This document shows, piece after piece, positions 2,756 to 29,322 of a stretch of DNA of 50,623 bases. Each line of letters begins with the position of its first letter. The first letter of the stretch is position 1. Source of the stretch: an uncultured Clostridia bacterium (GTDB lineage: Bacteria > Bacillota > Clostridia > Oscillospirales > Acutalibacteraceae); NCBI GenBank assembly GCA_946186245.1, contig CAMHMN010000009.1, positions 1 through 50,623 on the forward strand, given 5' to 3'. A program made the position numbers and the translations under genes. Under the pieces are notes generated by a model, which had not been told where the DNA came from, did not search any database, and was given only the letters and a program-made list of their open reading frames with translations.

Positions 2756-2860
2756 ATGTCCAAGGAATATATCAAGCCTGTCATGGAAATCACAGAATTT
2801 GAGACGGAAGATGTGATTACTACTTCGGGAGAAGAATTCATTGACGGTGACGAAGACTGA
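2756..2860 (+). CDS. Precursor-like peptide 1 (YxxP...EDVITTSG family)
   Basis: This 34-residue peptide starts at ATG 2756 after GGAAAGGGG. The N-terminal 25 residues hold Y5-x-x-P8, then MEITEFETEDVITTSG; the tail after Ser24 is GEEFIDGDED. The same segment recurs at 24660 and 29322. The Y-x-x-P motif, a Thr at the penultimate position and a Gly next match the leader/core layout of lasso-peptide precursors, where YxxP binds a PqqD-like protein. An Asp sits at core position 8. No modification gene adjoins this copy; enzymes would have to act from the 25-29 kb region. It follows the 1474 surface gene by 40 bases. I recognise no named family; precursor status is inferred. Confidence 0.75.
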   Translation: MSKEYIKPVMEITEFETEDVITTSGEEFIDGDED

Positions 2861-2890
2861 TCTCTCTCATCCTTATTCCAACAAAAAAAG

Positions 2891-2939
2891 CGGCAGACTT
2901 CCGGAATGTTTATCAAATCCGGTTGTCTGCCGTTTTTTT
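2891..2939 (+). terminator. Rho-independent terminator after peptide 1
   Basis: CGGCAGACTTCCGG pairs with CCGGTTGTCTGCCG and is followed by seven T. Unlike the hairpins after peptides 2 and 3, this copy has a full T tract. Confidence 0.85.
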
Positions 2940-2962
2940 ATTGATGAATCAACGATAAGAAA

Positions 2963-3121
2963 TTATGCCTGCAATGTGGTCAGGGTGCCTTAGACCGTGT
3001 GTTCAGTACCGTTCAGATTGTAAACCAGCCATGCCCTGACGTACCATACATCACCGGTATTAACGCTGCTCCTGGTCCATGTGTATGTAATCATGCTGCC
3101 ATTGCACAGATTACAGTGCAT
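2963..3121 (-). pseudogene. Fragment of surface-protein C-terminal domain
   Basis: The minus frame from ATG 3121 reads MHCNLCNGSMITYTWTRSSV, then a WYVRAWLVYNLNGTEHTV segment, an in-frame TAA at 2990-2992, and GTLTTLQA before the final stop at 2963. This matches the end of the 29360 surface protein (YTWNK...WYARAWLVYDLDG...HTVY) and, past the stop, the last residues of the 1474 protein (HTVYGTLTTL). The stop replaces the conserved Tyr (TAC to TAA). It lies between peptide 1 and the end of the giant gene, with no start signal, so it is a decayed remnant. Confidence 0.65.
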
Positions 3122-3154
3122 TTAAGGTGAGAGAATTACCTCTGGAATGACAAT

Positions 3155-6100
3155 TTACGCCTTGCGTCTGCGGCGTATCAGGATCACGGCAAAGGCTGCT
3201 GCCGAGAGAAGCAGAGCCGAGAACGCGATGGCAAGCGGCAGTCCGCTTTCACCTGTTCCGGGAGAATCGGTCGTGGCTCTGGCTTTCCACACAGCGTACA
3301 GGGTGACATTGGCGTTGCCCATGGAGAATTTCTTTCCGGGCTTGTAGGTTGTTCCCTTGCCGTCCGCCTGCGTGTTCCATCCCTCGAAGGTATAGCCTTT
3401 CTTTTCCAGATTGCCCTGCGGCAGTACCGTCACTTTCTTGCCCGGCAGATACTCGATTCGATCCTCGGGGACGTTGCCGCCTGTAGATCCGTTGCCGTCG
3501 TAGAATACGCGGTACTTCGTCTGCGGATCGTCAGGGGTGTCGCCGGAGGGCTTCCACTTTGCGTAGAGATGAACGTCCGCGTTCACCGTCAGAGTTTCGC
3601 CCTGATTGTAATGATCGCCGCCATCCGATTCCGTTGTCCATCCGTCAAACTCACAGCCCGTCTTTTGCAGGGTGGAGGGTCCCAGAACGGTTGCGGGGGT
3701 TCCGGCGGTGTACTGTCCGTCGTCTGTCGGGGGTTCGCCGGCGTCATTCCCGTTGCCGTGGTAGGTGACGGTGTAGGTCGGCGCTTCGTTCTGCTGCCAT
3801 ACAGCCGCCAGCGTAAGATCACCGTCGAGCGCATCCATGACCGCGCCTTCCGCGTAAACCGTGTCATCGCTATAGAAGAGCTTTGGCGCGACCGCACGCA
3901 GGAATGACTTCAGATATCCGGTGGGACTGGAATGACTGCCGGAAGCGGTAATCTTCCATCCGACAAACTCATAACCCGGACGCACATAATCGGTGAATCC
4001 TTCGTTGTGTCTGAGCGTGTAATCCTGTCCTTTGACGCAGGTGTCCGTTTTCACGGTTCTCAGCGATTCATCCGTGATTTCGTTGCCGGACAGACCGCTG
4101 GTATAGGTGATATTGACTTCGCTTTCCCTGGCCCAGACGCCGGTCAGGGTGACGGTGCGGAGCAGATCATTGCCTGCCACGGCAGAAACGGGCGTTGAAG
4201 CGTTGATGGTGAAGCCGGTGGTGTTGCTGCCGCCCAGCTTCCAGCCGTCAAACCGGTAGCCTGCCGGAGCGGTCGGAACCGGTTTCACAGTCACATCGCC
4301 GCCGAATCCGTACAACGTGCTGTCCGTCGGCAGCGCCGGCGCATCGGCGGGTTCGGTGCCGGTGTAGACATAAAGCACCTGATATTGCAGATTGTCGTAA
4401 ACCGCCTTGTAGCGCACGGTTTCCGCCGGCATCGCGAAGGTGGTGCTCTCCCCTATCTCCGTACCGTCCGCGTCGGTCTGGCTGCTCTTCACAAGTGCCC
4501 ACTGACGGAATTTCTTTCCGTCCAATTCAGGTGCCAGTGCGCCGACCGTGACGGATTGCCTGTACTCATAGACGTCGGTCTTGAGCGGCTGCTTACCTTC
4601 TGCATACCCGTCGATATCGTAGTATTCTACGTTGAAGGAGCAAATATTCCACTGCGCGTAGAGAACGGTGGTTGTACCCTCCGGTACTTCAATCGCCTGA
4701 CCGTCTGTGTAAGAATCGCCGGAATCGTCCGCCGCGGTGTTCCAGTGATCGAATTCATAGCCCGTTCTCGTGCAGTCGGAAGGCATATCCTCAACCGTCG
4801 TCGAAAGCGCGCCGTAACCTGACTGCGACGCCGGCACCTTGTCAGCCGGCAAACCGCCGTTGGCGTTGTAAATCAGATTGGCCTGCCCGTTGACGTTGAA
4901 GGAGCCGTAGAAATACACGTCGTGTGCCGGCATGACAAAAGCGGTTCCGGCAGCGTTCATGTTCAGGTCGGTATCCGCGTTGTTCCAGCCGTCGAAGGTG
5001 TACTTTCCGGGGACGGTATAATTGGCGGGACCCGGTTTTTCCTGCACGGAAACATCCGCGCCGTAGGCAAATGGCAGATCGTCTTCATAGGTGTAATTCA
5101 CATCGTCCGGCACTGTCAGACTGTAGTACACATAATAGGTTTCCACCTTCCAAACGGCGTAGAGTGTGGTATCACGGTCGATGGAAAACTTGTCGCCCTC
5201 GGAATAATCGACGGAATTGTCCGCGCCGGAGGTCAGGCTCCAGCCCTGGAAGGAGTAGCCCGTCTTTTGCAGATTGCCCTGTCCCAGCACGGTCACTTCG
5301 CTGCCGAGGGTATAAGGACTGTTCGCATCGACCGGAGCGCCTTCCACTCCGTTTCCGTCATAGGTCACGGTGTATTCCGGCGCCGTCCACACGGCATAGA
5401 GATCGGTGTCGTGATCAATGGTGAAGTAGCTGCCCGTCTGGGGGGAGTTGCTGTCATACGGCACATACACCACGGTATCGGCACTCGGATCGGTATCCCA
5501 GCCGCTGAAGGTGTATTCGCCTCTTGCCATCTCGCCCTTGCCCAGCACATGAACGGACTCTCCGTCATAATACGGGCTATTGGTATCTACCGGAACACTG
5601 CCGGTATGCCCTTCGCTGTGGTAGGTCACGGTGTAGGTTGCCTTGGGAAGCCAGATGGCGTAAAGGGTGATATCCTCATCGGCGAAGGTCACCGAAGTAA
5701 CCTGCTCCGGTTCGGTCTTGCTGAGGGACCATCCACCGAAAGTATAGCCTGTGCGGGTAAGACCGTTGTCGCCCTTCAGATTTTCCTCGCTCTCATGGGG
5801 GGCGTAGGTCTTGCTTTCGGTCGGAGGCGTGCCGCCTGTATGGCTGTTGCCGTCATAAAGCAGACGGTAGCGCGGCGAGAAATAGACGTTGACGGTGATG
5901 GCTCTGTCCTTCTGCACATAGCTGAGGGGAACCGTGTAAATTTTCGAGCCTTCGGTGTGTTCCGGAGCAATGGCGTTCTGCGTATTGTCGTTCTTCTCCT
6001 GGTAGCTCGCTTCGAAGGGAGACGCCGCCAGTTCATAGCCGGCGGGCGCGTTCAGCGTGAATTCAAGCTTCGTTCCGGCAAGGACGTGAGCGGAAAGCGA

Positions 6101-9100
6101 CTCCGCGTCTTTCAGCGTGAGGGTGTTCTCCTTGGTATCGCCGATCCGCAGCGGTTTCTCCCCGCCGCTGCCTGTGCCGATGATGACCACTTTGCCGTCC
6201 GTAATGGGAACGGGTTCATTGCTGCTGTTCATGAGGAACTGATTGACCGTCAGCTGCGCGAGATCCTCCTGGTCATCGTTGCTGAACTGAATCTGCACAT
6301 AGATGTTGCGGGTCCAGGTTCCGAGATTGACGGTGGTGATGACTTTACCGTCGACGACTTCCTGGGAAATCTTATCGTTTCCTGTCACATACGCCATATC
6401 GCCGCTTCTCGAAGCGCCCGCGCGGATGTAGTCGAAACGGTATCCCTCGTTCGGCTCGATGACAAGAACGATCGGATCGCCGGCATGGAAGCTCATCGCC
6501 TGCATATAGTCGGTGTCCTTGATAACGGTCGCGCCGTTCATCCTGACGGAGCCTTTGGGAGCGTCGGTGTCGTTATTGGTACCCACTTCCAGAATCGGTC
6601 TGCCGAAATAGTAGCTGACTGTGACATTGCCGCCGTCCGCCGTCTCATAGTGATAGGCGCAGCTGTCGTTTCTGGTGGTGATGGTGCCGTTCTGGTTGAT
6701 CTCCATCTTCTGCAGATTATAGGTTTCGGGAATTGTCGCGTCAAGAACCACATGAACCCGGTCAATATTGTTGTATTTGACCGCGTAGAGCGAATTCGCG
6801 GCGTTCACGGGTACGGTGGAGGATTTGACCGTGTGGTGGGTAGGATGCGACGTGCCGTCCATTTCATCGGCAACCAGCGCTTCTACCACGGTGTCGAACC
6901 GGTCTTCCTCCCAATTATACCGATAGAGCACCGGCAGGGCGTCGTGATGATAGATGATCGCTTCCTCCGGATTATCAGGCACATAATTGGCGTGATGATC
7001 CGCGTCGGATGTTTTGGCCGATTCGCTGGAGGATGGCTGACGGTAGCCCACACAGGTCTGCTCCACCTTGAGCGTGGCGGCGATCTCATTCAGCATGGAA
7101 GGATCGGTAATCGGCTCGTAGCCGTCCAATTCCTCATTGTAGCAGTACAGATTGACAGTCAATCGGGTATTCTTGACAACCGTGTCGGTAGAGGAATAGG
7201 TTTCTTCATGGACTTCCGGTACCTTGATGTCATCCGCGGTGGAGAGGACATAGATGACCGTCATATAACTGTCGTCCGTTATGGGATCAAGGGTGATGAC
7301 TGGGCAGAAGCCTACCGGCAGGGGAGGCTGCTCGTCATCGAAGAGAATCCGCTGTTTCATCTGAGTGGATTCCGTCTGTCCGTAATACACCGCGCCGACG
7401 CGGTAGTATTCATAATGACTGGAGCCGCTGGAACGCTCCACTTTGAACTGGTAATTGACCGTGCAGGTCGGTGTGCTGCCCCGTCTGACGCCGATATCGT
7501 ATTCCTCGTAGTTGGCAAGGTAGTTGCTGGAATAATACACGTCGTTCGTGCTGCCGTCAATCGAAGAAGCGCCTGCATTCACCACGCGCTTGGGACTGTG
7601 ATACCCCAGTCCGCTGTACCTGCGCTGGTATTCGTAGAGACCGAGCTGATCCATAATCAGGAAGTCGTCCAGACTCATCTCGTATGCCTTGATATGGATG
7701 ATATCGGCGGTAAAGGTTGCCTCCGCCGTGTAGTGTTTCCCACCTTGCAGCGAAGCGAAGGTTTCTTTGAGAAGCGCGAATTCCGCATCGGTAAGGGAGC
7801 CTTTTGTGATGGCGCTGAAATCCACCTGAATCACATTGTCTCCGGTAGGAGGCACCGCGACGGAGGTGATCTGATCGCGCGTCAGCGTCCATGTGCCGAC
7901 GCCCTCACATTCCAGCTTCAGTGTTTCGAGGGTGTAGCCCGCAAGCTCCGTAATTTCAAGTTCGAGCGGTGTGCTTTCGCCCGTGAGAAGAACGGCGCTT
8001 GCCTCATAGCCGGTGGACATGGATTCGTGCGACAGATTCTCGTCGTCCTTCTTGGGCGTGCAGTAGAAGGCAACGGAGTCAAACGCGTGCCTGTTCCGGA
8101 TGTCGGGACGCAATTGCGTCTGTTCGCTGGAGGAATCGGTGTAAAGCGCCGTTCCGGTCACCTCTGCCGCCTTGAGGTAGTAATTGACGATTTTTATCGT
8201 TCCGTCCTCCGTAATATTGAGGGACTTCTCGTAGTAATTGTTATCCTTTGAAACGGCTCTGGTCTGTATTTCGCCGTCGTCGATCTGCTCTGTGTAGCAG
8301 TAAAGCCTGTACAGCGCCTGCCCTTTGGAATACAGACTGGCGCGTGTGCCGGTGATGATGGCGTAGGAAGCGGTGCTGCCGTTCACGGCAGCGTTGTCGC
8401 CGACCGTTCCGCCGTCCGGCAGAACTCTCGCGGGCAATGTGTAGAGGGGGTTGGAGAGCCGCAGACTGACCATGCCGACATCTTCCAGAAGCTCTCCGGA
8501 AATGTAATCGCGGTTTTCCACGATCAAGGTGCCTTCCGTCCGCTTATCCGCGAAATACACCTCAAAGACAAGATTGCGGAACATCCGCGACTGCACGGGG
8601 GAACCGTTCTGCGTCACGGAATAAATCAGGTTGCCGTTCGCGTCGGTTTCGGTGTAGGTGCAGTCGTAGGTGTCGCCGTCCGGGTCAAATGCCTTGACTT
8701 CGTAGACTTCGTCATTGGAAACAGGCTTCACGGCAAGCGAGAACCCCGTATGACGCAGTACATAGCAGTTCACTTCCGGAGCGGAGGAGGTAACCTTCAC
8801 GGACGCGGTGGGCGCGGCGCTGCCTCTGGAAGAAGAATGGAACGGGACATCGCTCTTGTAAACGTCTCCGCTGTAAAGACCGCTCTCGTCTCCGCGTGCG
8901 CCGCTGAGCGTCGCGTAACTGCCGGTCAGGGTGTTGGGGACAAACTCTCTCTGCTCGGTGCTGTGATACATTTTCAGCGTGACGCTCGTGATTTTTTCGA
9001 TATAGACCGTGATCTCATAGGCGTAGCCGTTGTTGAGCTGCTGCGGCAGGGCGAATTTCGCCTGATAGACCGGCACGTCGTTCTCGGTCTTGTAAAGATA

Positions 9101-12100
9101 ATTGCTGAGCTGCGGCGAGAGGGTCTCCGTCACGCCGTCCTTGGTGCGGGTCGCCACCACACTCGCGATGGTGTAATCTTCCGGCATGGAGATGGTTCCC
9201 GTCATCTTCACCCGGTCGATGGCGTACACATGACGCACGGAAGGATCGTTGGTTACGGTGTAGGCACCGGTATTGTACTTGCTTCCGCTGACGTTTTCCA
9301 CGATGACGGGATAAATCGTGCCGCTGCCGTAGCAGGCGTTGTTATGTTCAAAGGTTGCGTAGGTGTTGGTCACCGCGTTGTCTTCAAAGACCGCGTCGTC
9401 CAGATCGGAGCGAGAACGGAACCGCACCGTCACTTCCGCTGTCTTGGCGAGGTAAACGCGGATATACAGATTGCGTTCCGCCGTGTTGACGGTACACTGG
9501 GAATAATCGTAGCAGATGCCGTAGCCTTCCAGATTCTGCGAGGAGGGCATCAGACCTTCGGCGTGCTGTCCCGGTGTGCCGCTGGATGTGATGAAGGAAG
9601 TTTCCACATTTGCCACCACATAACCGGCGGGAATATCCTTGATCCGGACGGACAGCTTGGTCTGTCCCGTGGTCAGATAATCCTCCACTGTATTCTGCAC
9701 CGTGAAGCTGTCGCAGGTCACGGAACGGTTGGAAGATTTGATGAACTGATAACCGCGTTCCGTGGTCGCCGCGTTCGTGCCGGTCACTTCTGCGTAGGCG
9801 GTGGTGGTGTTGGTGAGCATCGAAGACTCCGTGGCGGGGTCTTTTTCCAGCACTTCCATCTTGATGTGGTGCGCGGTCATGTATTCCACTTCGATGGTGA
9901 TGTCGTCGTTTTCCGCGAGCGTTTCGTTCAGTTTGTACTCCACATTGTCATAACCGGAGGAACTGAGCGTCATGTCCAGCGGCGTGTCGGAATTGGTGCG
10001 CCGCACAACGACTTTGGACAGCACTCTGGAACCGTTGGTATTGATTTTGACCTTCACGGTGAGCTTGTTGCCGGCGGAGGCGTAGACAAGGGAGGACTTG
10101 GCGAGATTGCCGTCGGTGTCGTCGCCTTCGAGCAGCTTGTTCGCGTAGGTCTTGGAAAGGTTGTTGTTGGAGGTGCTGGCGGGATCCAGGAAAGTGCCGT
10201 TGTTCTGGCTCGACAGCGTGACGGTGCCGACAACGGTGGAACTCAGAGGAGCCGGAGAGCCGTCCGCGCGCTGTTCCAGACGCACAATCGCCGCCTTGGT
10301 GTAGGAAACGGTGATCTCGTACATCGGACCTTTGTAGCTCGAATCGGTATCGCCGGTAAAGAGACTGTTGGGAATGGAGAAGGTATCGCCGCTTCTGGTA
10401 AGAGAGCTGCCGTAATCCTGATCGGTGTAAAGCAGCGGCATTACCTTGATATAGGACACGACATAGCCCGCCGCCGGCGCCGGCGTGAGCTGAATATTGG
10501 TGGTGCCTCTGTAAACGCCGCAGCCGAATTCCGCTCCGGAAGCGGTGAAGGAATCGGTCGACGCCTGATTATCCGCGGTCGTTCCGTAGATGAAGGCGGT
10601 GGTATCGTCGTCGCGCGGGGTGCCGTTGAAGGTCACGCTGAAGGAGCTGTCCGCCGGCGTGCTGCTGCCGTCGGAGGTGACGATCTGCTGCTTGATTTTC
10701 CACGCCCGGATGGTCTTGCCGTAGACGACTTCTACCCGCAGATTACATTTGGGCATGGTAAATTCCGCCTGTTCAAATACCGGCTTATTCTGTTTGAGCC
10801 CGATATTCTGATAATAATCCGCGTCAGTCGTGCCGTCAAAGGTCAGGCCCACGTCCACTTCCACATTGGTGTCGGCGTTGTAGAATTTCACCGACTCAAC
10901 CATCGTGGCGTTATCGTAATGGGTGTAGTTGCCGTCCATCAGCTTATACTTGTAATTTGCTTCGGCCCGGAAATATCCCAGTGTCGTCACGCGTTCCGTT
11001 TCGCCTGACGGGAATCTCACCGGCGAACCGGTGTCAAGGGAAGTTTCAACTGACTTGCCCAGCAGATAAAGAGGAGACAGCAGGGAGGAATCCGCATAGA
11101 GTATTTCGTTTTCCCACGTGGTATCCTTGGTGGTGGGTCTGGTTTCTTTGATCGTAATGGTGTGCATATCGGACTTCATCTTCTGCGTGATCTTCACCGT
11201 CACGTCATAGGCAGGCGGCTGGAATTCCACATAGGGGCTGCCGCTCTTGTAATCCGTCCGGTTCAATATCTCGGAGGTAACGTCCGCGCCGTCGCTGTCC
11301 CTGATGAATTTCAGACTTGTCATCTCCGTTACCCTGGCGCTGTTATAATTGGAGCTGTAATAGGTATCCGGCTTGCGGTCATAGCAGATGAGCGACATGA
11401 AATAATTGACGACCTGATTCTGATGATAATTGGAGAAGGTAACGGTCTTGCCGTCGTCGGAAGTGTAAGCGTTACCCTGCACTCTCGGGTATTGGCTGCC
11501 GTTGGTCAGCGACTCCGTACAGTCCGCGTCGGAATAACGCGCCTTATAGATGATCTGGTAAAAGCTGTTGAAGTCATAGCTGTCCGTTACGGCAACCGCA
11601 TTCAGGGTGAGATCGGGCGAAGTGGCTTCCACCGTCACCTTGTGGGGCGTAACATCGCTGGTAATCACGTCCACGATGGTGGAATACGTGGGGAACGTCA
11701 CGACATACTTCCCGTCCTCCTGGGTGACATAATTGGCGGAATTCATCGCGTAGCCGTTGCCGTCATACAGTCTGACTTCGGTGATGCTGACCGTATCGCT
11801 GTCGGTGCTGAGGACAAATCTGCCGCCTTTCAGGGCGGTTACCGCAAAGGAGGTGGTTGTGTCATCGGAAAACGCCGCGGAAGACTTGCCGTTCAACACA
11901 TTCCAATAGCCCGCAATGCCCCAGTTGCTGTATTGATCAAGCTCACGGCTATAGAAGTAGTCCCATGCGTTAGGCGCATAGGCTTCGATCCTGACAGGAA
12001 CGCTGGAGTGCCGGTTGATGGTCAGAGTAGCGCCCCTGTTGAAGGCATTAATCTGGTTGACGGTGATGGACGTAACCGAGCGTTCGCCGATCGCGTCCGC

Positions 12101-12742
12101 GACAGAGGACCATTTAAAGTTTCCGTAATAACTGGGAACCGTCATGGAACTGCCATAGGAAGAAGCGGAAGAAACCGGCCAGTTGAGGTCGGTGCCGTCG
12201 CTCAGATGGAGGGTCACGCTTCCCTGGAAACTGTCGTTGTAGTTGGTCTGGAGCTTATAGAGATAGATTTGCATATCATGCCCGTAATAAAACACGCCCG
12301 GCTGTGAGGAAGCCACCGAACGGTCGAAGGAAACGTCCAGCTTGCTCTCGCCGTTCAGCATGCTCTTGACAGTGCCGAGAACATCGGTATAAGCGCCCGC
12401 GGGATAGGCGGAGGAAACGACGGTTCCGTCATTCATCGTGAGATCGTGCGTCACGTAAAGCGGAATTTCCTGCGGCGAAGGATCCGCCATCGGAATCAGT
12501 TTCGCGCCATGATTCGTGACCACGTTATAATTCTCGGCATCTGAGGGTGAAACGCTCTCAACGGCAGACGCTTCATCGGGCTGGGTGGGAGAGACATCCG
12601 CCGTCTCATCCGCTCTGACCGTAAGCAGTTCTGTCGCGTTCCGAAAAGCCAAAAAACCGCTGCAGATGCCAATCGCCAGCGACAGGATGATAACAACGGT
12701 CTTCATGGAGCCATTCTGGATTGATTTTCTGATTGAATTCAT
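3155..12742 (-). CDS. Giant cell-surface protein with ten InlB-type repeats and C-terminal sorting signal
   Basis: This 3195-residue protein starts at ATG 12742 behind AAGGAGG. A hydrophobic segment (residues 14-35, VVIILSLAIGICSGFLAF) targets it for export. Residues of about 60-2290 are Ser/Thr/Tyr-rich repeated beta modules I do not recognise. From about residue 2295 ten InlB B-repeat (Listeria/Bacteroides repeat) units follow, most ending LYAVW or similar and carrying GY-F-GW cores; units four, six and seven are divergent. The C-terminus has SPGTGE, a hydrophobic stretch (LPLAIAFSALLLSAAAFAVIL) and RRRRKA, the layout of a sortase signal with a variant motif. It is therefore probably a wall-anchored adhesin. 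A small membrane protein precedes it in the same operon. No frameshift is visible despite the length. Confidence 0.88.
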   Translation of the reverse strand: MNSIRKSIQNGSMKTVVIILSLAIGICSGFLAFRNATELLTVRADETADVSPTQPDEASAVESVSPSDAENYNVVTNHGAKLIPMADPSPQEIPLYVTHDLTMNDGTVVSSAYPAGAYTDVLGTVKSMLNGESKLDVSFDRSVASSQPGVFYYGHDMQIYLYKLQTNYNDSFQGSVTLHLSDGTDLNWPVSSASSYGSSMTVPSYYGNFKWSSVADAIGERSVTSITVNQINAFNRGATLTINRHSSVPVRIEAYAPNAWDYFYSRELDQYSNWGIAGYWNVLNGKSSAAFSDDTTTSFAVTALKGGRFVLSTDSDTVSITEVRLYDGNGYAMNSANYVTQEDGKYVVTFPTYSTIVDVITSDVTPHKVTVEATSPDLTLNAVAVTDSYDFNSFYQIIYKARYSDADCTESLTNGSQYPRVQGNAYTSDDGKTVTFSNYHQNQVVNYFMSLICYDRKPDTYYSSNYNSARVTEMTSLKFIRDSDGADVTSEILNRTDYKSGSPYVEFQPPAYDVTVKITQKMKSDMHTITIKETRPTTKDTTWENEILYADSSLLSPLYLLGKSVETSLDTGSPVRFPSGETERVTTLGYFRAEANYKYKLMDGNYTHYDNATMVESVKFYNADTNVEVDVGLTFDGTTDADYYQNIGLKQNKPVFEQAEFTMPKCNLRVEVVYGKTIRAWKIKQQIVTSDGSSTPADSSFSVTFNGTPRDDDTTAFIYGTTADNQASTDSFTASGAEFGCGVYRGTTNIQLTPAPAAGYVVSYIKVMPLLYTDQDYGSSLTRSGDTFSIPNSLFTGDTDSSYKGPMYEITVSYTKAAIVRLEQRADGSPAPLSSTVVGTVTLSSQNNGTFLDPASTSNNNLSKTYANKLLEGDDTDGNLAKSSLVYASAGNKLTVKVKINTNGSRVLSKVVVRRTNSDTPLDMTLSSSGYDNVEYKLNETLAENDDITIEVEYMTAHHIKMEVLEKDPATESSMLTNTTTAYAEVTGTNAATTERGYQFIKSSNRSVTCDSFTVQNTVEDYLTTGQTKLSVRIKDIPAGYVVANVETSFITSSGTPGQHAEGLMPSSQNLEGYGICYDYSQCTVNTAERNLYIRVYLAKTAEVTVRFRSRSDLDDAVFEDNAVTNTYATFEHNNACYGSGTIYPVIVENVSGSKYNTGAYTVTNDPSVRHVYAIDRVKMTGTISMPEDYTIASVVATRTKDGVTETLSPQLSNYLYKTENDVPVYQAKFALPQQLNNGYAYEITVYIEKITSVTLKMYHSTEQREFVPNTLTGSYATLSGARGDESGLYSGDVYKSDVPFHSSSRGSAAPTASVKVTSSAPEVNCYVLRHTGFSLAVKPVSNDEVYEVKAFDPDGDTYDCTYTETDANGNLIYSVTQNGSPVQSRMFRNLVFEVYFADKRTEGTLIVENRDYISGELLEDVGMVSLRLSNPLYTLPARVLPDGGTVGDNAAVNGSTASYAIITGTRASLYSKGQALYRLYCYTEQIDDGEIQTRAVSKDNNYYEKSLNITEDGTIKIVNYYLKAAEVTGTALYTDSSSEQTQLRPDIRNRHAFDSVAFYCTPKKDDENLSHESMSTGYEASAVLLTGESTPLELEITELAGYTLETLKLECEGVGTWTLTRDQITSVAVPPTGDNVIQVDFSAITKGSLTDAEFALLKETFASLQGGKHYTAEATFTADIIHIKAYEMSLDDFLIMDQLGLYEYQRRYSGLGYHSPKRVVNAGASSIDGSTNDVYYSSNYLANYEEYDIGVRRGSTPTCTVNYQFKVERSSGSSHYEYYRVGAVYYGQTESTQMKQRILFDDEQPPLPVGFCPVITLDPITDDSYMTVIYVLSTADDIKVPEVHEETYSSTDTVVKNTRLTVNLYCYNEELDGYEPITDPSMLNEIAATLKVEQTCVGYRQPSSSESAKTSDADHHANYVPDNPEEAIIYHHDALPVLYRYNWEEDRFDTVVEALVADEMDGTSHPTHHTVKSSTVPVNAANSLYAVKYNNIDRVHVVLDATIPETYNLQKMEINQNGTITTRNDSCAYHYETADGGNVTVSYYFGRPILEVGTNNDTDAPKGSVRMNGATVIKDTDYMQAMSFHAGDPIVLVIEPNEGYRFDYIRAGASRSGDMAYVTGNDKISQEVVDGKVITTVNLGTWTRNIYVQIQFSNDDQEDLAQLTVNQFLMNSSNEPVPITDGKVVIIGTGSGGEKPLRIGDTKENTLTLKDAESLSAHVLAGTKLEFTLNAPAGYELAASPFEASYQEKNDNTQNAIAPEHTEGSKIYTVPLSYVQKDRAITVNVYFSPRYRLLYDGNSHTGGTPPTESKTYAPHESEENLKGDNGLTRTGYTFGGWSLSKTEPEQVTSVTFADEDITLYAIWLPKATYTVTYHSEGHTGSVPVDTNSPYYDGESVHVLGKGEMARGEYTFSGWDTDPSADTVVYVPYDSNSPQTGSYFTIDHDTDLYAVWTAPEYTVTYDGNGVEGAPVDANSPYTLGSEVTVLGQGNLQKTGYSFQGWSLTSGADNSVDYSEGDKFSIDRDTTLYAVWKVETYYVYYSLTVPDDVNYTYEDDLPFAYGADVSVQEKPGPANYTVPGKYTFDGWNNADTDLNMNAAGTAFVMPAHDVYFYGSFNVNGQANLIYNANGGLPADKVPASQSGYGALSTTVEDMPSDCTRTGYEFDHWNTAADDSGDSYTDGQAIEVPEGTTTVLYAQWNICSFNVEYYDIDGYAEGKQPLKTDVYEYRQSVTVGALAPELDGKKFRQWALVKSSQTDADGTEIGESTTFAMPAETVRYKAVYDNLQYQVLYVYTGTEPADAPALPTDSTLYGFGGDVTVKPVPTAPAGYRFDGWKLGGSNTTGFTINASTPVSAVAGNDLLRTVTLTGVWARESEVNITYTSGLSGNEITDESLRTVKTDTCVKGQDYTLRHNEGFTDYVRPGYEFVGWKITASGSHSSPTGYLKSFLRAVAPKLFYSDDTVYAEGAVMDALDGDLTLAAVWQQNEAPTYTVTYHGNGNDAGEPPTDDGQYTAGTPATVLGPSTLQKTGCEFDGWTTESDGGDHYNQGETLTVNADVHLYAKWKPSGDTPDDPQTKYRVFYDGNGSTGGNVPEDRIEYLPGKKVTVLPQGNLEKKGYTFEGWNTQADGKGTTYKPGKKFSMGNANVTLYAVWKARATTDSPGTGESGLPLAIAFSALLLSAAAFAVILIRRRRKA

Positions 12743-13570: not shown

Positions 13571-13578
13571 GCGAAAAC

Positions 13579-20465: not shown

Positions 20466-20574
20466 ATGGATTTACACATTGTTTAATTGTCGATCAACGA
20501 ATCCGATTCACGCTTCGTTCTGCGTCAGCCGATCACCGCTTCATTATCCTGGCTTTACAAGCCGGACCGCCAAA

Positions 20575-22418: not shown

Positions 22419-22598
22419 CAGGCTCACCTCCTTTGCCCTTTCACTACGTTAATGCATCTTTTCTTCCATTCGTTACAAAGATGATGGAAGATTTTTTATT
22501 TTTTTCAATCGTTTATCCCCAATTCTTTGCCGAATCCGATCCTTGTTTTTTTGCCATACGGTAAGGGCAACCGGAAACCGTTGCGCGACCTGTTTCTC

Positions 22599-22654
22599 AG
22601 AAAGAAAAGCGTATGCGCTGCTCCTGACATCCATTCTCAGAACAGCACATACGC
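22599..22654 (-). terminator. Terminator of the metallohydrolase gene
   Basis: GCGTATG...CATACGC arms with an inner GCTG/CAGC pairing form a hairpin that on the minus strand is followed by TTTTCTTTCT. It lies about 40 bases past the stop at 22693 and rules out the longer minus ORF that crosses it. Confidence 0.7.
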
Positions 22655-22692
22655 CTTCTTCACCTGGCTTTACCGCGGTATTTTCCATGAAG

Positions 22693-23592: not shown

Positions 23593-23731
23593 TTCCACAC
23601 TTCCTTCCGTGAGAATTATAATACAATGTTATGAGAATTGTATTAACCGGATGTTAGCAGACTATTACATTTGTATGGAAATCCGTCAATGAAATAACAA
23701 TTAATTTACAAATCTGTATACCTGAAGGATA

Positions 23732-23760
23732 TTGTCTATTTGATCATGATGTGCTATAAT
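23732..23760 (+). promoter_or_regulatory. Promoter for the lipoprotein gene
   Basis: TTGTCT (23732-23737) and TATAAT (23755-23760) have a 17-base spacer and lie about 68 bases before the start codon at 23828. Confidence 0.7.
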
Positions 23761-23827
23761 AATCATGCCAATCATCGAAATTCTCTGCGAATGACCGCGG
23801 AGACAATCATTTCAGGAGGTATTCATT

Positions 23828-24373
23828 ATGAAAAAGCTACTTTTCAGATTGACGGCATGTGCCATCGCACTGCTCGCAGCGGCAGCCATTACAGCCTGCG
23901 GGGACAGCAACAGGAAGAATGACAAGCCCACGGAATCCGCGACAGAATCACAGATGTCCGACGCGGCAGTGGATGAAGATCTGGCGAATGTCATCGAACA
24001 CGCCGGAACCGTAGGCGAAGGGACAGCCGGTTCATCGCTGAAACAGGCCATCATTGCCCATGATCTGGCAGCACTCGCGGCTGAAAAAGGCTACACCGAG
24101 GAAGACATTGCCAAGCTGAAATCGACCTTTGAGGCAACCCTCGAATCGATGGACGAGAACGCAAAAAGCAGCGTTCACTCGGTATTTTCAAACGGCGTTT
24201 TTCCGATGCTCGACAAGACAATCGCTGACGGGAATCTGGACGAATATCAGGGACTGCTTGAAGACGCCGGTGTAAGCGGCGATTGGGATAAGATTCTGCA
24301 AACGCCCGGTCTGGCGGACAGCTATAACAGCATAAAATCCGCTTACCTCGCCCTTGATGATTCCAAGAACTGA
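23828..24373 (+). CDS. Small lipoprotein of unknown function
   Basis: The 181-residue product starts behind AGGAGG. It has a lipoprotein signal peptide (KKLLFRLTACAIALLAAAAI) ending in a lipobox ITAC-G, Cys at about residue 24. A Ser/Thr/Glu linker follows, then a helical domain (AGSSLKQAIIAHDLAALAAE, TEEDIAKLKSTFEATL, a NGVFPMLDKTIADGNLDEY segment). I recognise no family. It has its own promoter and stands between the divergent metallohydrolase and the peptide 2 operon, with no functional link visible. Confidence 0.8.
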   Translation: MKKLLFRLTACAIALLAAAAITACGDSNRKNDKPTESATESQMSDAAVDEDLANVIEHAGTVGEGTAGSSLKQAIIAHDLAALAAEKGYTEEDIAKLKSTFEATLESMDENAKSSVHSVFSNGVFPMLDKTIADGNLDEYQGLLEDAGVSGDWDKILQTPGLADSYNSIKSAYLALDDSKN

Positions 24374-24528
24374 ACCCTGCCAAACAACAAAAAAAAGCAG
24401 ACACTCGCGGGAGAATTCACCACTATTTCTATCGTAGTAATAAAGATTGGGCAAAGAAAGTCATTCACAAGCCAAATGACGATACAAAAATTTCCGAAAG
24501 TCTTTTTGATTAATTCACACCCGTATTC

Positions 24529-24557
24529 TTGACTTTTTCCGTTACGTGTGGTATAAA
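24529..24557 (+). promoter_or_regulatory. Promoter for peptide 2
   Basis: TTGACT (24529-24534) and TATAAA (24552-24557) have a 17-base spacer, one of the best promoters in the window. It gives a leader of about 95 bases before ATG 24660. Confidence 0.7.
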
Positions 24558-24659
24558 GAGTATATACAATCATGGCGTGCAGCTACGCATGACATCCATG
24601 TTGCTGCGCATGATGATTTCAACCCAAACCTAATTTATTTAGAAAGGAAAGGATTCCCA

Positions 24660-24767
24660 ATGATTCCCTACATTACCCCCCAGATGGAGATTACCGAATT
24701 TGAAACCGAAGATGTGATTACGACTTCTGGTAATGGTGTTATTATGGGAGAAGAAGGTGACGATTGA
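24660..24767 (+). CDS. Precursor-like peptide 2 (YxxP...EDVITTSG family)
   Basis: This 35-residue peptide starts at ATG 24660 after AAAGGAAAGG. It has Y4-x-x-P7, then MEITEFETEDVITTSG, identical over those 16 residues to peptide 1; the tail after the Ser is GNGVIMGEEGDD. If cleavage falls between Ser and Gly, acidic residues are at core positions 8 and 9, the ring-closing range in lasso peptides, though the core is unusually short and acidic. A MITE and a CGGCAG hairpin separate it from the PqqD-like and nucleotidyltransferase genes on the same strand. Strong promoter and site suggest higher expression than the enzymes. Precursor function is inferred from context. Confidence 0.8.
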   Translation: MIPYITPQMEITEFETEDVITTSGNGVIMGEEGDD

Positions 24768-24790
24768 GAGCTCATCAATCTGACCTCTTA

Positions 24791-24951
24791 GAGCCTGTTT
24801 AGAATCTCCACGTGTGCGGATGGCGCAGTCAGATTTTTCGCCAGATGCAGCCAAAACCGCAGGCAATACTTTGTGTATTAACGAGGATTTTGGCAAAATA
24901 TGGCGGAAAATATGCAAGCCAGACGTGCGTGGAGAGATTCTAAACAGGCTC
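24791..24951. mobile_element. 161-bp MITE, copy B (inverted relative to copy A)
   Basis: Perfect 18-bp terminal repeats GAGCCTGTTTAGAATCTC are flanked by TTA on both sides (24788-24790, 24952-24954). It differs from copy A at eight positions. The differences within the two ends are matched, so each copy keeps perfect inverted ends. It lies 23 bases after the peptide 2 stop and before the hairpin at 24967. Confidence 0.85.
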
Positions 24952-24966
24952 TTAAAGCAAAATAAA

Positions 24967-25001
24967 CAAACGGCAGGCGGCTTCGGCTGTCCTGCCGTTT
25001 G
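24967..25001 (+). promoter_or_regulatory. Intercistronic hairpin without T tract, peptide 2 to PqqD-like gene
   Basis: CAAACGGCAGG pairs with CCTGCCGTTTG, but ATCATTATC follows instead of a T run, so read-through into the enzymes is plausible. The hairpin matches the one between peptide 3 and the kinase gene. Confidence 0.6.
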
Positions 25002-25029
25002 ATCATTATCAGAAAGAAAGGATCATGAT

Positions 25030-25293
25030 ATGAAACTGAATCCCCGTTTTCTCACTCACGAAACCAAAGGCGAGCATTATATGATCAGCACCGGCGATGC
25101 GACCTTCAAGGGCATCGTGAAGAACAACGAAACAGCCGCATTCATCGTCGAATGCCTGAAATCCGACACAACGGAAAGCACCATCGTGGACAGGCTCCTT
25201 GCGGAATATGAAGGAGCTGACCGCGCCACCGTTTCCCGTGATGTGGCGGATATCATCGGAAAACTCCGTTCCATTGGAGCGTTGGAAGAATGA
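25030..25293 (+). CDS. PqqD-like peptide-binding protein (RRE), copy 1
   Basis: This 87-residue protein starts behind AGAAAGGA. It has the PqqD/lasso-B1 layout: a beta-strand N-terminus (MKLNPRFLTHETKGEHYMIS) and TFKGIVKNNETAAFIVECL, then helices DTTESTIVDRLLAEY and VSRDVADIIGKLRSIGALEE. PqqD-family proteins bind precursor-peptide leaders and present them to modifying enzymes; in lasso systems they recognise a YxxP leader motif, present in peptides 1 and 2. It overlaps the nucleotidyltransferase gene by four bases (ATGA). A paralogue lies at 28079-28339. Binding to these peptides is inferred. Confidence 0.88.
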   Translation: MKLNPRFLTHETKGEHYMISTGDATFKGIVKNNETAAFIVECLKSDTTESTIVDRLLAEYEGADRATVSRDVADIIGKLRSIGALEE

Positions 25294-26393
25294 ACGATAC
25301 ACAAAAGAAACTGCTCTGTCTGCTGTCCTGCGCTGTAAACGGCATCACGCCCGACTCGGCAACGGTACAGGAGATGGATCCGGATGAACTCTATCGCCTG
25401 GCCAAGCTGCATTCTGTCAGGGGCACGGTCTGCATTGCCCTGAAACGGGCTGGCGTTGAGAACAAGCCTTTCGATCAGGCTTATAAGAAAGCCGTCCGCA
25501 ATAACATCTATTTTGAATTGGAGCGTTCGGCTGTTCTTGCCGAATTTGAACAGCAGGGCATTTGGTATATGCCCCTGAAAGGCTCCGTGCTGAAAGACCT
25601 CTATCCAGAGAACGGGATGCGTGAAATGGCTGACAGCGATATTCTTTACGACGCCGGAAAAAGACAGCAGGTCAAAGAAATCATGCTTTCCCACGGTTAT
25701 GAGGTGAAGAGCTTCGGAAGGTGGCATCATGATGTATACATGAAGCCGCCCGTGCTGAATTTTGAGCTGCACACGGCATTATTCAGCGAGAACCACGACC
25801 ATCCGGTGAATCTGTATTATGCCGATGTGAAGCGATTGCTCCGTAAGGACGACGGCAACCGCTTCGGGTATCATTTTTCGGATGAAGATTTCTACATCTA
25901 CATGACCGCCCATGAATGGGTTCACTACAGCAGAAACGGCACGGGCATACGGTCCCTGATGGACTGTTACGTCTATTGCAAAGCCAAGGGGAACACCCTT
26001 GACTGGGAGTATATCACCAAGCAGTGCGGGCAGCTTGCCATTGCCGATTTTGAACAGAAACGCAGAAAACTCGCGTTCAAGGTCTTTTCCGCGGACACCC
26101 TTCCCGATCTGACCGATGAAGAAACGGACATGCTGCGGTTTTATCTGTCGGCCGGCACATACGGTTCACTGGATCACGGCATCCGCAATGAACTGAAAAA
26201 TCAATCAAAAGCAGGCTTCCTTTTGCGCCAGATATTTCCGGATATGAATTACATGAAACATTCCGTGGCTTTTGTCAACAAAGTTCCGCTGTTATATCCG
26301 GCTGGACTTGTTTTCCGCTGGGGACGTATTTTGATTTTTCACAGAGATCATATCAAAAAGACGCTGGGAATTGTGATAAAACAAAAAAAATAA
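25290..26393 (+). CDS. Nucleotidyltransferase-fold protein (NTP_transf_5 type), copy 1
   Basis: This 367-residue protein starts within the stop of the PqqD-like gene. Its core reads WYMPLKGSVLKDLYPENGMR then EMADSDILYD, the pattern of the uncharacterised nucleotidyltransferase family found with lasso and other peptide clusters: LKG...P...R...D-x-D for metal binding. The N-terminal about 85 residues are helical (LLCLLSCAVNGITPDSATV) and a helical C-terminal half carries DEDFYIYMTAHEWVHY. Family members in lasso clusters are proposed to modify the peptide; the chemistry here is unknown. A paralogue with the same layout lies convergently at 26450-27565. The last 40 residues are basic and hydrophobic, perhaps membrane associated. 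Confidence 0.85.
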   Translation: MNDTQKKLLCLLSCAVNGITPDSATVQEMDPDELYRLAKLHSVRGTVCIALKRAGVENKPFDQAYKKAVRNNIYFELERSAVLAEFEQQGIWYMPLKGSVLKDLYPENGMREMADSDILYDAGKRQQVKEIMLSHGYEVKSFGRWHHDVYMKPPVLNFELHTALFSENHDHPVNLYYADVKRLLRKDDGNRFGYHFSDEDFYIYMTAHEWVHYSRNGTGIRSLMDCYVYCKAKGNTLDWEYITKQCGQLAIADFEQKRRKLAFKVFSADTLPDLTDEETDMLRFYLSAGTYGSLDHGIRNELKNQSKAGFLLRQIFPDMNYMKHSVAFVNKVPLLYPAGLVFRWGRILIFHRDHIKKTLGIVIKQKK

Positions 26394-26422
26394 CCACCGC
26401 AAAGCAGTTGGCAATGCGGTGG
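26394..26422 (-). terminator. Terminator between convergent nucleotidyltransferase genes
   Basis: CCACCGCA pairs with TGCGGTGG. On the minus strand it is followed by TTATTTTTTTT, so it should end the 29080-26450 operon. Confidence 0.7.
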
Positions 26423-26449
26423 AATCGATGGTCTGTATTTTGAAATTCC

Positions 26450-27565
26450 TCAGTGACCCTTTGTTTGTTTTCCGTAATTCCATAAGCTTTTCAGTTTATT
26501 CAGGATTCGATTGGGCTTGAAAACCAATCTCCTGATCAGGCGAGAAAGCCAGCAGACCGGCAACAGAAACGGCAGCTTTCTCAAAACCGGATATTGGATG
26601 GCCATCTGTGGATAGGGCAAAAACAGATTCGACCAGAAGTAACGCCAGCGTCCCTGCTTTATTATTTTATTCTGTACGGTTCCGTACACGCCGGAGATAA
26701 TATAATACCGCAACCGTTCTTCCTCCTGCGGCGAGAGATTTTCTCCCGAAAACAGCCGCAGCGAAAGCTCTCTGTTCTGCTTCTCAAAATCCGCGAGGTC
26801 AAGCTTTTCCAGCTCCGCCTCCAGATAATCCCTGTCCAATTGATCACCGAATTTTCGCCAGAAGACATAAACATCCAGCAGCGAACGAAGCCCTGTGCCG
26901 GATTCGGAAAAATGCCTGTATTCATGCGCGATGAGGTAGACATAGAAGTCCTCCTCGCTGAAACGCCGCGCCGTTGTGCTCTCCTCGCTGATCAGCCGCA
27001 ACGCAACGTCTTTGTAATAGTCATACATCTTACCGTTGGTGTGATTGAAAAGCGAACGGTGGATCTCAAAATAACTGACAGGCTTTTTGACATATTCGTC
27101 ATGCATTTCTCCCCCATACTGCTCCAGGGAAAAACCGAGGGAGATCATGATTTTCCTGACATCTTTGGAACGGCTTGCGTCAATCAGAATGTCATTGTCC
27201 GACATCTGCCGCATGCCGTATTCCGGGTAATACCCGGCCAGCACGGCTCCTTTGAGCGGCATATACCAGATTTTTTCCGCTTCAAGCCGCTCTGTCAGGG
27301 CAGCTCTGTCGAGATCCAGCGCGGCATTTTTCCGTATAGCCTTTCCCTTGGCCTGCGTGAATGGCGCGGATCTGACTCCCGCCTTTTCGAGAGCCATCGC
27401 GGTAACGGCGGTCAGCTGATGCCCATTGGCCACGGTATACAGATTGTCCAGATTCATCCGCGCTATTCTTTCCCTGTCGGGTGTTTCCCCGTTCACGGCG
27501 CACGCAGCCAGATATGTCACTTCTTTGGCTGTCCTGATATAGACTTTTTCGGTCAGAGCTGCCAT
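26450..27565 (-). CDS. Nucleotidyltransferase-fold protein (NTP_transf_5 type), copy 2
   Basis: I prefer ATG 27565, close behind GGAGGGAAGG; an upstream ATG at 27598 has only GAGAGA. The 371-residue product matches copy 1 in layout: an N-terminal helical region (TYLAACAVNGETPDRERIA), WYMPLKGAVLAGYYPEYGMR then QMSDNDILID with the metal-binding D-x-D type motif, EEDFYVYLIAHEYRHFSESG in the middle, and a basic, hydrophobic C-terminus. It is the last gene of the kinase/PqqD-like/S26 operon. Duplication of this gene together with the PqqD-like gene suggests two related pathways or a paralogous pair acting on different peptides. Confidence 0.85.
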   Translation of the reverse strand: MAALTEKVYIRTAKEVTYLAACAVNGETPDRERIARMNLDNLYTVANGHQLTAVTAMALEKAGVRSAPFTQAKGKAIRKNAALDLDRAALTERLEAEKIWYMPLKGAVLAGYYPEYGMRQMSDNDILIDASRSKDVRKIMISLGFSLEQYGGEMHDEYVKKPVSYFEIHRSLFNHTNGKMYDYYKDVALRLISEESTTARRFSEEDFYVYLIAHEYRHFSESGTGLRSLLDVYVFWRKFGDQLDRDYLEAELEKLDLADFEKQNRELSLRLFSGENLSPQEEERLRYYIISGVYGTVQNKIIKQGRWRYFWSNLFLPYPQMAIQYPVLRKLPFLLPVCWLSRLIRRLVFKPNRILNKLKSLWNYGKQTKGH

Positions 27566-27639
27566 AAATCCTTCCCTCCATTTTTTGATCAATTGCATTC
27601 TCTCTCCACATCAGACAGACCGGCGATCAGGGAGCAGCC

Positions 27640-28086
27640 TCAGCTTTTTCTTCTTTTCCGCCTTTTCAGGCGTCTTAGTCCACGAAGAAAAATCAGCACC
27701 AAGGCTCGCAGCGGAAAGAAATCGCACCATACATGCACATAAACACGATATCGCCAATCGGTGACGGAAATCTCCCTGCCATCCCGCACAACGGCAGTCA
27801 GCACGCCGATAATGTGCCGGTCAGTAATGCCGTATTCCCTTCTCCAGCGGTTATCGCCGCAGATCACGTAATCCTCCTGCCGCACCTTCAGAATCCTGTG
27901 CAGCACATATTGTCCCGAATCCCGCTTATACAGCGGGACGTCGTATTTTTTCAGCCGACCGCTTGTTTTTTCGATGACCAGCAGATCCCTGCCCTGACGG
28001 ATCAGCGGAAGCATGCTGTCCCCGACATTGGTGTAAACCAGCCTGCCTTCGCGCCGGATGATTTCTTCAAATGTGATGTTACTCAT
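27640..28086 (-). CDS. S26/S24-type serine peptidase-like protein (candidate leader peptidase)
   Basis: The start at ATG 28086 overlaps the end of the PqqD-like gene. The 148-residue protein reads VGDSMLPLIRQGRDLLVIEK, the Ser box of signal-peptidase-like enzymes (G-x-S-M-x-P), then YVLHRILKV and VICGDNRW, the GD-N box. His occupies the place of the usual bacterial Lys, as in SipW/ER-type signal peptidases with a Ser-His dyad. There is no N-terminal membrane anchor; the C-terminus has a hydrophobic patch (ALVLIFLRGLRRLKRRKRRK) ending in a basic tail. In this operon it could remove the leader: the conserved TTS|G junction has small residues at -1 and -3, as signal peptidases prefer. That is inference. 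Confidence 0.75.
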   Translation of the reverse strand: MSNITFEEIIRREGRLVYTNVGDSMLPLIRQGRDLLVIEKTSGRLKKYDVPLYKRDSGQYVLHRILKVRQEDYVICGDNRWRREYGITDRHIIGVLTAVVRDGREISVTDWRYRVYVHVWCDFFPLRALVLIFLRGLRRLKRRKRRKS

Positions 28087-28339
28087 CAATCGCACCTATT
28101 TTCCGCAATTCGTCAAGCGCGTGCCTCACATCCCGTTCGATCAGTCCATCGGGAGCGTCGTAGCTTGCTTTCATGGCGGCGATGATATCCGCTTCCGTCA
28201 CATCCTTCCGCAGCAGCTTTACGATGCTGCCGAGGGCCTGATTGCCTTTTACCACGCCGGAAAAGCCCGCGGAGGCGGTTGGCACAATAATGGTATCCTT
28301 GGCTGTCTGGTGCACGATAAATCGGGAGTTTAACTTCAT
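28079..28339 (-). CDS. PqqD-like peptide-binding protein (RRE), copy 2
   Basis: I choose ATG 28339 because it aligns with copy 1 (MKLNSRF... versus MKLNPRF...) and has AAAGGA at better spacing; an ATG two codons earlier is also possible. The 86-residue protein has FIVHQTAKDTIIVPTASAGF, then GVVKGNQALGSIVKLLRKDV and a C-terminal helical part ending LDELRKIGAIDE, close to copy 1. By family it should bind a precursor leader. It lies between the HPr-kinase-like gene, whose stop is six bases upstream, and the S26-like gene, which it overlaps. Confidence 0.87.
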   Translation of the reverse strand: MKLNSRFIVHQTAKDTIIVPTASAGFSGVVKGNQALGSIVKLLRKDVTEADIIAAMKASYDAPDGLIERDVRHALDELRKIGAIDE

Positions 28340-28345
28340 GACCAT

Positions 28346-29080
28346 CTATCCTTTCATTCCGTGATAAGCAACTTTCGCCGCCTCTATATCCATATTGCAG
28401 CGTAAACGGTAGAGCCCGACATGTTCCGTCATGCGGTCAAGCAGCGTGAGTGTCCTCGCAAGCATGACCGGATCCGACGGTCGGTAAGCCTGCTGCACCA
28501 AAAGCGGATAGACGTCCCTCTTCCCTGCCGGCTCAATATGATTTTCCGCCGCCTGCTCCAGCGTGCAGATGGCTTTGAGCGGAACAGACTGCGGGCAGCC
28601 GCGACGGTGCTTGCCGTTATAGGGCGTTCCGAATGCCGTGACCATGCCGTCCGCAATCCGGATCAGCGGCTTGTCGTCATTGATTATTATAGCACGTTCT
28701 CCGAAATAGTCCACCCATAATTGCGTATGGGTGGATTTTCCCGTTCCGCTTTTGGCGGTAAAAAGATACCCCTCGCCGTCTACTGCCACCACTGAACCGT
28801 GAAACAGAATGGTGTCGTATGTCGGCATTTTTTCGGCGATCCTGCGGTAGACCGCAAGCGATTCAAGATATTCCGCGGAAAACTCCCGGATGCAACGGCC
28901 GGCCACGATATCCTCACGGCGTGATTTTTCCCTCTCAAAGCCGATATCTTCCGCGGTGGTGATGACCGGGAAGTCCGGCGTCCCTGACGCTAGATAATCC
29001 GCGCAGTATTCATGAACATAAGGATAAATCGAGGAAATCTGAATGAGTTTGTCCGCAAACCGGTAAGTATCCGTTATCAT
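28346..29080 (-). CDS. HPr kinase-like protein of peptide-modification type
   Basis: This 244-residue protein starts at ATG 29080 behind AAAGGAG. It carries a P-loop (LFTAKSGTGKSTHTQLW, about residues 106-120) preceded by ILFHGSVVAVDGEGY, then INDDKPLIR and TPYNGKHRRGCPQSVPLKAI, the core of HPr kinase/phosphorylase-like proteins. Short versions like this, lacking the HPr regulatory N-terminal domain, occur in lasso clusters such as paeninodin, where they phosphorylate the precursor's C-terminal Ser. The cores proposed here contain no Ser, so another target or reaction must apply. It is the first enzyme after peptide 3 and its hairpin, followed by PqqD-like, S26-like and nucleotidyltransferase genes. 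The peptide 2 set lacks a kinase. Confidence 0.85.
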   Translation of the reverse strand: MITDTYRFADKLIQISSIYPYVHEYCADYLASGTPDFPVITTAEDIGFEREKSRREDIVAGRCIREFSAEYLESLAVYRRIAEKMPTYDTILFHGSVVAVDGEGYLFTAKSGTGKSTHTQLWVDYFGERAIIINDDKPLIRIADGMVTAFGTPYNGKHRRGCPQSVPLKAICTLEQAAENHIEPAGKRDVYPLLVQQAYRPSDPVMLARTLTLLDRMTEHVGLYRLRCNMDIEAAKVAYHGMKG

Positions 29081-29116
29081 GCGCCTTCTCCTTTACAGCA
29101 TTTACATTGTTTACAA

Positions 29117-29150
29117 CAAACGGCAGACAGCCAAGGCCGCCTGCCGTTTG
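29117..29150 (-). promoter_or_regulatory. Intercistronic hairpin without T tract, peptide 3 to kinase gene
   Basis: CAAACGGCAG pairs with CTGCCGTTTG with an inner GC stem. On the minus strand TTGTAAAC follows, a poor T tract. Its sequence, orientation and position match the hairpin at 24967-25001. Confidence 0.6.
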
Positions 29151-29199
29151 TTTTATGATTCATCAATAGTCCGTCAAAAGAACCTATGCTGAAATGTCA

Positions 29200-29322
29200 T
29201 TAGTCATCATGTTCTTCGCCGATGATTACGTCTCCGGGGTTGGGTTCACCCGACGTGGTGATCACATCTTCCACATCAAATGCAATGACTTCCATTTCAA
29301 GCTTTTCATATTTCTGAAACAA
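29200..29322 (-). CDS. Precursor-like peptide 3 (EDVITTSG family)
   Basis: I choose TTG 29322 as start: GAGGTG lies six bases upstream, and it makes the leader exactly 25 residues to the conserved Gly, as in peptide 1. GTG 29331 is an in-frame alternative. The 40-residue product reads MFQKYEKLEMEVIAFDV, then EDVITTSG, then GEPNPGDVIIGEEHDD counting from the shared Gly. The Y-x-x-P motif is Y-x-x-L here. Asp is at core position 7 if cleavage falls before Gly. It lies 37 bases after the 29360 surface gene and before the kinase/PqqD-like/S26/nucleotidyltransferase operon. Precursor function is inferred. Confidence 0.75.
   Translation of the reverse strand: MFQKYEKLEMEVIAFDVEDVITTSGEPNPGDVIIGEEHDD

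Follow-up and report, generated by a model that had tools for sequence, protein, structure and literature searches.

The closest described relatives of the peptides considered here are the Linear Polyphosphorylated Peptides (LPPs), found in Bacilli by Popov et al. (Nat Commun, May 2026; PMC13381572). According to the main text of that paper, LppK puts several phosphates on one Ser, LppS cuts after a Thr with the help of LppB, and the role of the peptides is stated by their discoverers to be unknown; the terms Clostridia, Ruminococc, Oscillospir, secreted and surface have no match in that main text. Lasso clusters of the paeninodin/pseudomycoidin type also combine a kinase, an RRE and a nucleotidyltransferase with a [YW]xxP leader (described in part in PMC7533575). 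HprK-related and PqqD-related proteins likewise occur together in the HPr-rel-A and SynChlorMet gene sets of NCBIfam, which the DNA analysed here (the window, a stretch of 50,623 nt from an uncultured Clostridia bacterium) matches only far below the curated cut-offs.

Three short peptide genes are found in the window (Table 1). Translation confirmed the frames of 34, 35 and 40 residues that a first-pass annotation had marked as an undescribed modified-peptide family, and these parts of its description held: all three share ME-[IV]-x-x-F-x-x-EDVITTSG, a stretch of 16 residues is the same in peptides 1 and 2, the flanking DNA differs (the 100 nt upstream of these two agree at only 32 positions), and Shine-Dalgarno-like runs before the genes make the ribosome sites plausible. 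The 16 codons common to peptides 1 and 2 comprise 8 identical codons and 8 synonymous differences, with 0 nonsynonymous ones, which argues that these are real, related genes. By comparison, 7 of the ten codons after TTSG, aligned ungapped, alter the residue, which suggests constraint on the leader and freedom in the tail. Nor is the motif a product of chance, since across the 2.6 Mb genome a degenerate EDVITT pattern picks out these 3 sites and no others, with 0 for the reversed control. Profile E-values for the three range from 2.8e-17 to 3.5e-18, with a profile that includes all of them, and the same-genus genome G036 (L014/L032) has a relative of peptide 3 with ATG where peptide 3 has TTG. 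Judged from sequence, the three peptides are real and related.

Table 1. Positions of the peptide genes, candidate partners, enzyme genes and exporter in the window
Feature	Position	Strand	Remarks
413-aa secreted-type protein	1474..2715	+	40 nt upstream of peptide 1
Precursor peptide 1	2756..2860	+	34 aa; translation, profile match
Peptide 1, predicted phospho-acceptor Ser24 and predicted cleavage after Thr22			site predicted from the LPP paper (PMC13381572, main text)
181-aa lipoprotein-like gene (by eye)	23828..24373	+	286 nt before the peptide 2 ATG; weak partner candidate
Precursor peptide 2	24660..24767	+	35 aa; sole Ser is that of TTSG
Second PqqD-type RRE	25030..25293	+	87 aa; unit with peptide 2; 40% identical to first RRE
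Second NTP_transf_5 nucleotidyltransferase	25290..26393	+	367 aa; unit with peptide 2
NTP_transf_5 nucleotidyltransferase (LppN-like)	26450..27598	-	382 aa
SipW-like S26 peptidase (LppS-like)	27640..28095	-	151 aa; GxSMxP, LHR and GD motifs; sub-threshold family matches
PqqD-type RRE (LppB-like)	28079..28345	-	88 aa
HprK-like kinase (LppK-like)	28346..29080	-	244 aa; P-loop; sub-threshold family matches
Precursor peptide 3	29200..29322	-	40 aa; TTG start; sole Ser is that of TTSG
982-aa secreted-type protein, partner of peptide 3	29360..32308	-	CTD-A at 29363-29761
Exopolysaccharide-type cluster	32437..46281	-	between cassette and exporter
ABC exporter, candidate LppD	46526..48241	-	scores like exporters after S26 genes elsewhere

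As far as the main text of the LPP paper goes, LPP loci and the window have in common an HprK-like kinase, a discrete RRE, a SipW-like peptidase, an NTP transferase and an MsbA-like exporter, with a polysaccharide locus nearby in both. The proposed tie of a leader/core peptide family to PqqD-like and nucleotidyltransferase genes was borne out, and the family is conserved in related genomes. Among PDB folds, the predicted structure of the kinase (pLDDT 95) comes closest to HPr kinases, and the P-loop is kept in 90/90 kinases. In the cassette RRE, Asn35 and Asp72 are spaced like the LPP pair N33/D70, a spacing (N-37-D) found in 59/72 RREs. The peptidase motifs GxSMxP, HR and GD are kept in 11/11 aligned sequences, and S26 motifs in 66/66 of a larger filtered set. 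Against PDB sequences, the kinase, peptidase and peptide profiles gave no useful match; the RRE profile lay closer to the lasso RREs 5v1u and 6jx3 than to LppB (9x8z).

Starting from peptide 3, the gene order in the window is A-K-B-S-N. The order A-K-B-S-D-N, common to the LPP loci of that main text and this branch, is seen in L097 and L099, and an extra gene follows A in L098 and L104 (A-x-K-B-S-D-N) and in L091 (A-x-K-B-S-D), the exporter domains having been verified in L091 and L105 only. The candidate exporter of the window lies about 17 kb from the peptide 3 operon, on the far side of the exopolysaccharide-type cluster. A profile of five cassette exporters gives it 621 bits, within the 541–646 bits reached by most other exporters encoded directly after an S26 gene. 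A natural fusion of S26 peptidase and ABC exporter (761 aa) was seen at L105 6406-8691 (-).

To find relatives, a peptide profile (A1) was built from 8 family members, the window's three included. Of 391 same-class genomes, counting the window's own, 73 had a match at E<=0.1 and 41 had one at E<=1e-4, in line with the expectation that the peptides would be conserved in related genomes. A degenerate pattern had matches in 15 of 200 same-family genomes, the own genome again among them. By translation, six of the others (G100, G149, G021, G014, G036 and G020) contain true short relatives; the matches in the remaining eight proved unrelated, being five long proteins and three chance frames. An iterated search over 47 sources yielded 53 peptides. 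A Ser anchor fits 98 of 104 distinct peptides (E<=1e-3); it stands four residues after V or I in 97 of these 98 and after A in one, and two residues ahead of it stands T in 73 peptides and A in 10. Precursor variants containing Cys adjoin the cassettes in L162, L164, L185 and L206, perhaps reflecting another modification, and four tandem precursor genes stand ahead of one kinase cassette at L138 715-1336.

Set against the LPPs as the main text of PMC13381572 describes them, these peptides share the YxxP leader and a conserved Ser that closely follows the [T/A] residue of the cleavage site, but the end of the leader reads D[VI][IV][TA]xS(G) here and FETxxS there. The full LPP leader is YxxPxVLxHQxIxFETxxS, whose element Px9Fx[T/A] occurs in 0 of the 98 anchored peptides. 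LPP precursors number 1–3 per cluster, whereas in this branch the number of matches in a single genome reaches at least 19, and the tie to secreted-type proteins presented below sets this branch apart from LPPs as that main text describes them. No description of this leader, or of the combined features, was found in the open-licence literature. With the LPP motif absent and no description found, the peptides are called, on sequence grounds, an LPP-like new branch rather than plain LPPs. The word undescribed in the first-pass annotation was therefore half right: it stands for this branch, and it fails for the pathway, since LPPs with the same enzymes were published in May 2026. Multi-copy precursors, pairing with secreted genes, co-variation of tail and C-terminal domain (CTD) and fusion are features that we did not find in print.

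Peptide and peptidase occur in the same genomes. An S26 peptidase (E<=1e-20) is present in 39 of 41 peptide genomes versus 62 of 350 others (Fisher p about 1e-23), and with the ten model-building genomes removed the counts with and without peptidase are 30/2 versus 61/288; two peptide genomes are thus without the peptidase, and in 62 others it occurs although no strong peptide match is present. Among 80 loci found from the kinase alone, the RRE was present in 57, the peptidase in 57, the nucleotidyltransferase in 30 and a peptide matching the leader profile at E<=0.1 inside the fetched stretch also in 30. A whole-genome leader search, which took 37 of the 50 peptide-less kinase loci and 3 with a peptide, found a match somewhere in the genome for 32 of the 37 and none anywhere for 5. 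Cultured organisms are represented by Kandleria vitulina DSM 20405 (L148), with a precursor beside the cassette, and by Ruminococcus flavefaciens Y1 (L111), whose precursors lie away from its cassette. A regular-expression search for divergent precursors beside peptide-less kinase loci gave nothing clear.

Copy numbers, counted as matches at E<=0.1 with partial ones at contig ends included, reach at least 19 precursors in G412, 16 in G216 and 15 each in G215 and G275. Peptidase matches number one each in G216, G215, G275, G303 and G554 and two in G412, and some genomes thus have 13 to at least 19 precursor matches with one or two peptidase copies. In G216, G215, G412, G457, G250, G242, G555 and G502, K-B-S was seen with no recognised peptide in the fetched stretch, and G303, G275 and G554 have an S26 gene with no recognised K or B beside it. 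Given the few peptidase copies, the peptide-less K-B-S loci and the many precursors, the cassette enzymes probably act in trans on dispersed precursors.

The position of the peptide genes points to partner proteins. ORFs were called with a greedy script and secreted-type starts by a crude hydrophobicity rule; by these measures, 37 of 52 peptides (of the 53, one at a contig end was left out) lie no more than 60 nt behind a same-strand secreted-type gene of at least 300 codons, versus 18 of 554 other genes drawn from these loci (odds ratio 73). The 15 that miss this strict rule include the window's peptide 2. For 33 of the 34 peptides in G216, G215 and G412, a gene on the same strand, at least 150 codons long, ends no more than 300 nt away. 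The peptides themselves have no signal sequence of their own, as judged by eye.

By their last 170 residues, the partners form five main C-terminus families, which occur mostly ahead of peptides (partners/others 18/5, 8/3, 5/1, 6/0 and 4/1), besides some smaller groups and 19 singletons, and a single C-terminal domain common to all partners is ruled out by these several families and singletons. Two further groups proved to be merely kinase or peptidase genes preceding a peptide (3 cases). An LPxTG-like end was found in 0 of 57 partners and a C-terminal TM-like stretch in 3, which says little about wall anchoring because such ends are also few in the controls (5/95). CTD-A of the peptide 3 partner is predicted to be a beta-sandwich (pLDDT 85.7), with weak and mixed PDB matches, and by eye the final residues of the 413-aa protein resemble its end. 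A 43-codon CTD-A remnant (E 3e-15) at 2990-3121 (-) of the window is apparently a decayed gene. The window also encodes a 3195-aa repeat protein (3155-12742, -) ending in a membrane stretch and an RRRRKA tail; whereas the 982-aa partner is followed by a peptide, none was found after this protein.

Within two of three genomes tested, tails and partner CTDs co-vary. In G216 two tail types pair with two CTD types (Mantel r=0.94, p=0.0002, 13 pairs), and the co-variation also appears among the 72 of 78 comparisons with unrelated N-terminal parts; G215 gave r=0.60 (p=0.0002, 11 pairs), and G412, with one pair left out (partner <300 aa), gave no significant correlation (r=0.20, p=0.19, 8 pairs). Several loci come from one genome or genus, which makes the p-values given here optimistic. 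Tail and partner N-terminal part correlate weakly (r=0.42 in G216, 0.31 in G215), and leader and CTD correlate in G216 with r=0.65. Copying of whole units would yield the same correlations, which therefore speak for co-inheritance rather than contact.

In one case the two genes are joined. At L257 1684-4830 (-), and at the same place in L237, a secreted-type protein with CTD-E is fused in frame to a whole precursor: the 1048-codon frame opens with a secreted-type start, matches CTD-E at 90 bits and reaches the complete precursor with no intervening stop. The source is genome G592 (that of L116), a metagenome assembly of an uncultured Oscillibacter, and no second fusion was seen among the 2934 ORFs of 140 or more codons in the loci examined. 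Its junction keeps the Shine-Dalgarno run AAGGAGG and a GTG, so separate production of the fused peptide is possible as well. The fusion could have arisen through loss of a stop codon or through misassembly; it is also what a working protein–peptide pair would allow.

Our preferred reading, to which we give a probability of roughly 0.7, is that these are LPP-like, Ser-phosphorylated peptides produced in trans, every one of them serving a particular secreted protein. An LPP-like pathway is well supported, and the role of the pairing, with the core as partner of the protein, we infer from position, co-inheritance and one fusion. The precursors would give linear, Ser-phosphorylated RiPPs of a separate LPP-like branch found mainly in Clostridia. 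By homology to LppA/K/B/S, the RRE would hold the leader via its Tyr and Pro/hydrophobic residue, the HprK-like kinase would phosphorylate the nearly invariant Ser of [TA]-x-S, and the S26 peptidase would cut two residues ahead of that Ser and free the core; the NTP transferase may build further on the phosphate, and export of the short core would fall to the ABC protein. In many genomes one separately encoded enzyme set would serve many dispersed precursors, the precursor usually being the second gene of a two-gene unit after a large secreted-type protein, and the core would most likely work extracellularly with the C-terminal domain of that partner.

The first-pass annotation had matched the peptides to the grammar of lasso precursors, in which Gly1 is cyclised to an Asp/Glu at position 7–9 after leader removal. 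The YxxP-like leader and the Thr two residues before the Gly fit this, as do PqqD, kinase and nucleotidyltransferase genes like those of paeninodin-type clusters (in part PMC7533575), and over 98 tails acids at 7–9 are slightly above shuffles (54 vs 45.8 ± 4.3). As a rule, however, the acid failed among the Gly-first tails themselves (27 of 53 vs 24.9 ± 3.0 shuffled); 44 of the 98 tails have no acid at 7–9, 45 have no first Gly, and 24 are shorter than 14 residues, the shortest having 6. The B2 protease (PF13471) exceeded the cut-off in 0 of 41 peptide genomes, own included, with 4 weaker matches, and a one-sequence AsnB profile had 0 matches in the 80 kinase loci. Unlike the paeninodin/pseudomycoidin type, as far as known from that source, the present loci have an S26 peptidase, and neither macrolactam cyclase nor transglutaminase-like B2 was found in them. 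With B2 over cut-off in no peptide genome and ring acids missing from so many tails, it is extremely unlikely that the peptides are lasso precursors. Two "AsnB" matches in peptide loci look, on reading, like PurF. The own genome has two weak asparagine-synthase matches and one strong gene, nearer to the housekeeping than to the lasso cyclase model. This asnB is in two pieces on two contigs (window 566-988, +; L034 6158-9143), the window piece near a tRNA (389-463, -); a gene that by eye resembles a recombinase abuts the end of the first piece, an arrangement that points to disruption of asnB by an integrated element.

Phosphopeptides of LPP type might instead act alone, as signal or antimicrobial, with the preceding gene merely timing expression. 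No partner protein is reported for Bacilli LPPs in the main text of PMC13381572, some cassette precursors have no large gene directly in front, and in G216 the leaders also track the CTD, a pattern expected from simple copying of units; the position rule, the C-terminal families, the tail–CTD co-variation even among pairs with unrelated N-terminal parts and the one fusion nevertheless make this account doubtful. The tight pairing with secreted-type genes, together with the S26 genes of G303, G275 and G554 that stand apart from K and B, would suit a peptide that serves the secreted protein, without modification, as a small subunit or folding helper, its link to the kinase set being indirect, but this is highly improbable in view of the co-occurrence with the peptidase, the A-K-B-S operons and the peptides' lack of a signal sequence.

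LPP-like phosphopeptides, each dedicated to a secreted protein, may tentatively be placed in a trans-encoded tag system: one kinase/RRE/peptidase set would make phospho-peptides (perhaps glyco-phospho-peptides), each for one secreted protein and recognised by its C-terminal domain as anchor, latch or activator at the cell surface. Because the neighbourhood names a candidate partner for most precursors, the question of what LPPs do becomes testable. We know of no other partnership between a secreted protein and a separately made phosphorylated peptide. If the reading is true, gut Clostridia equip many of their secreted proteins with such a peptide.
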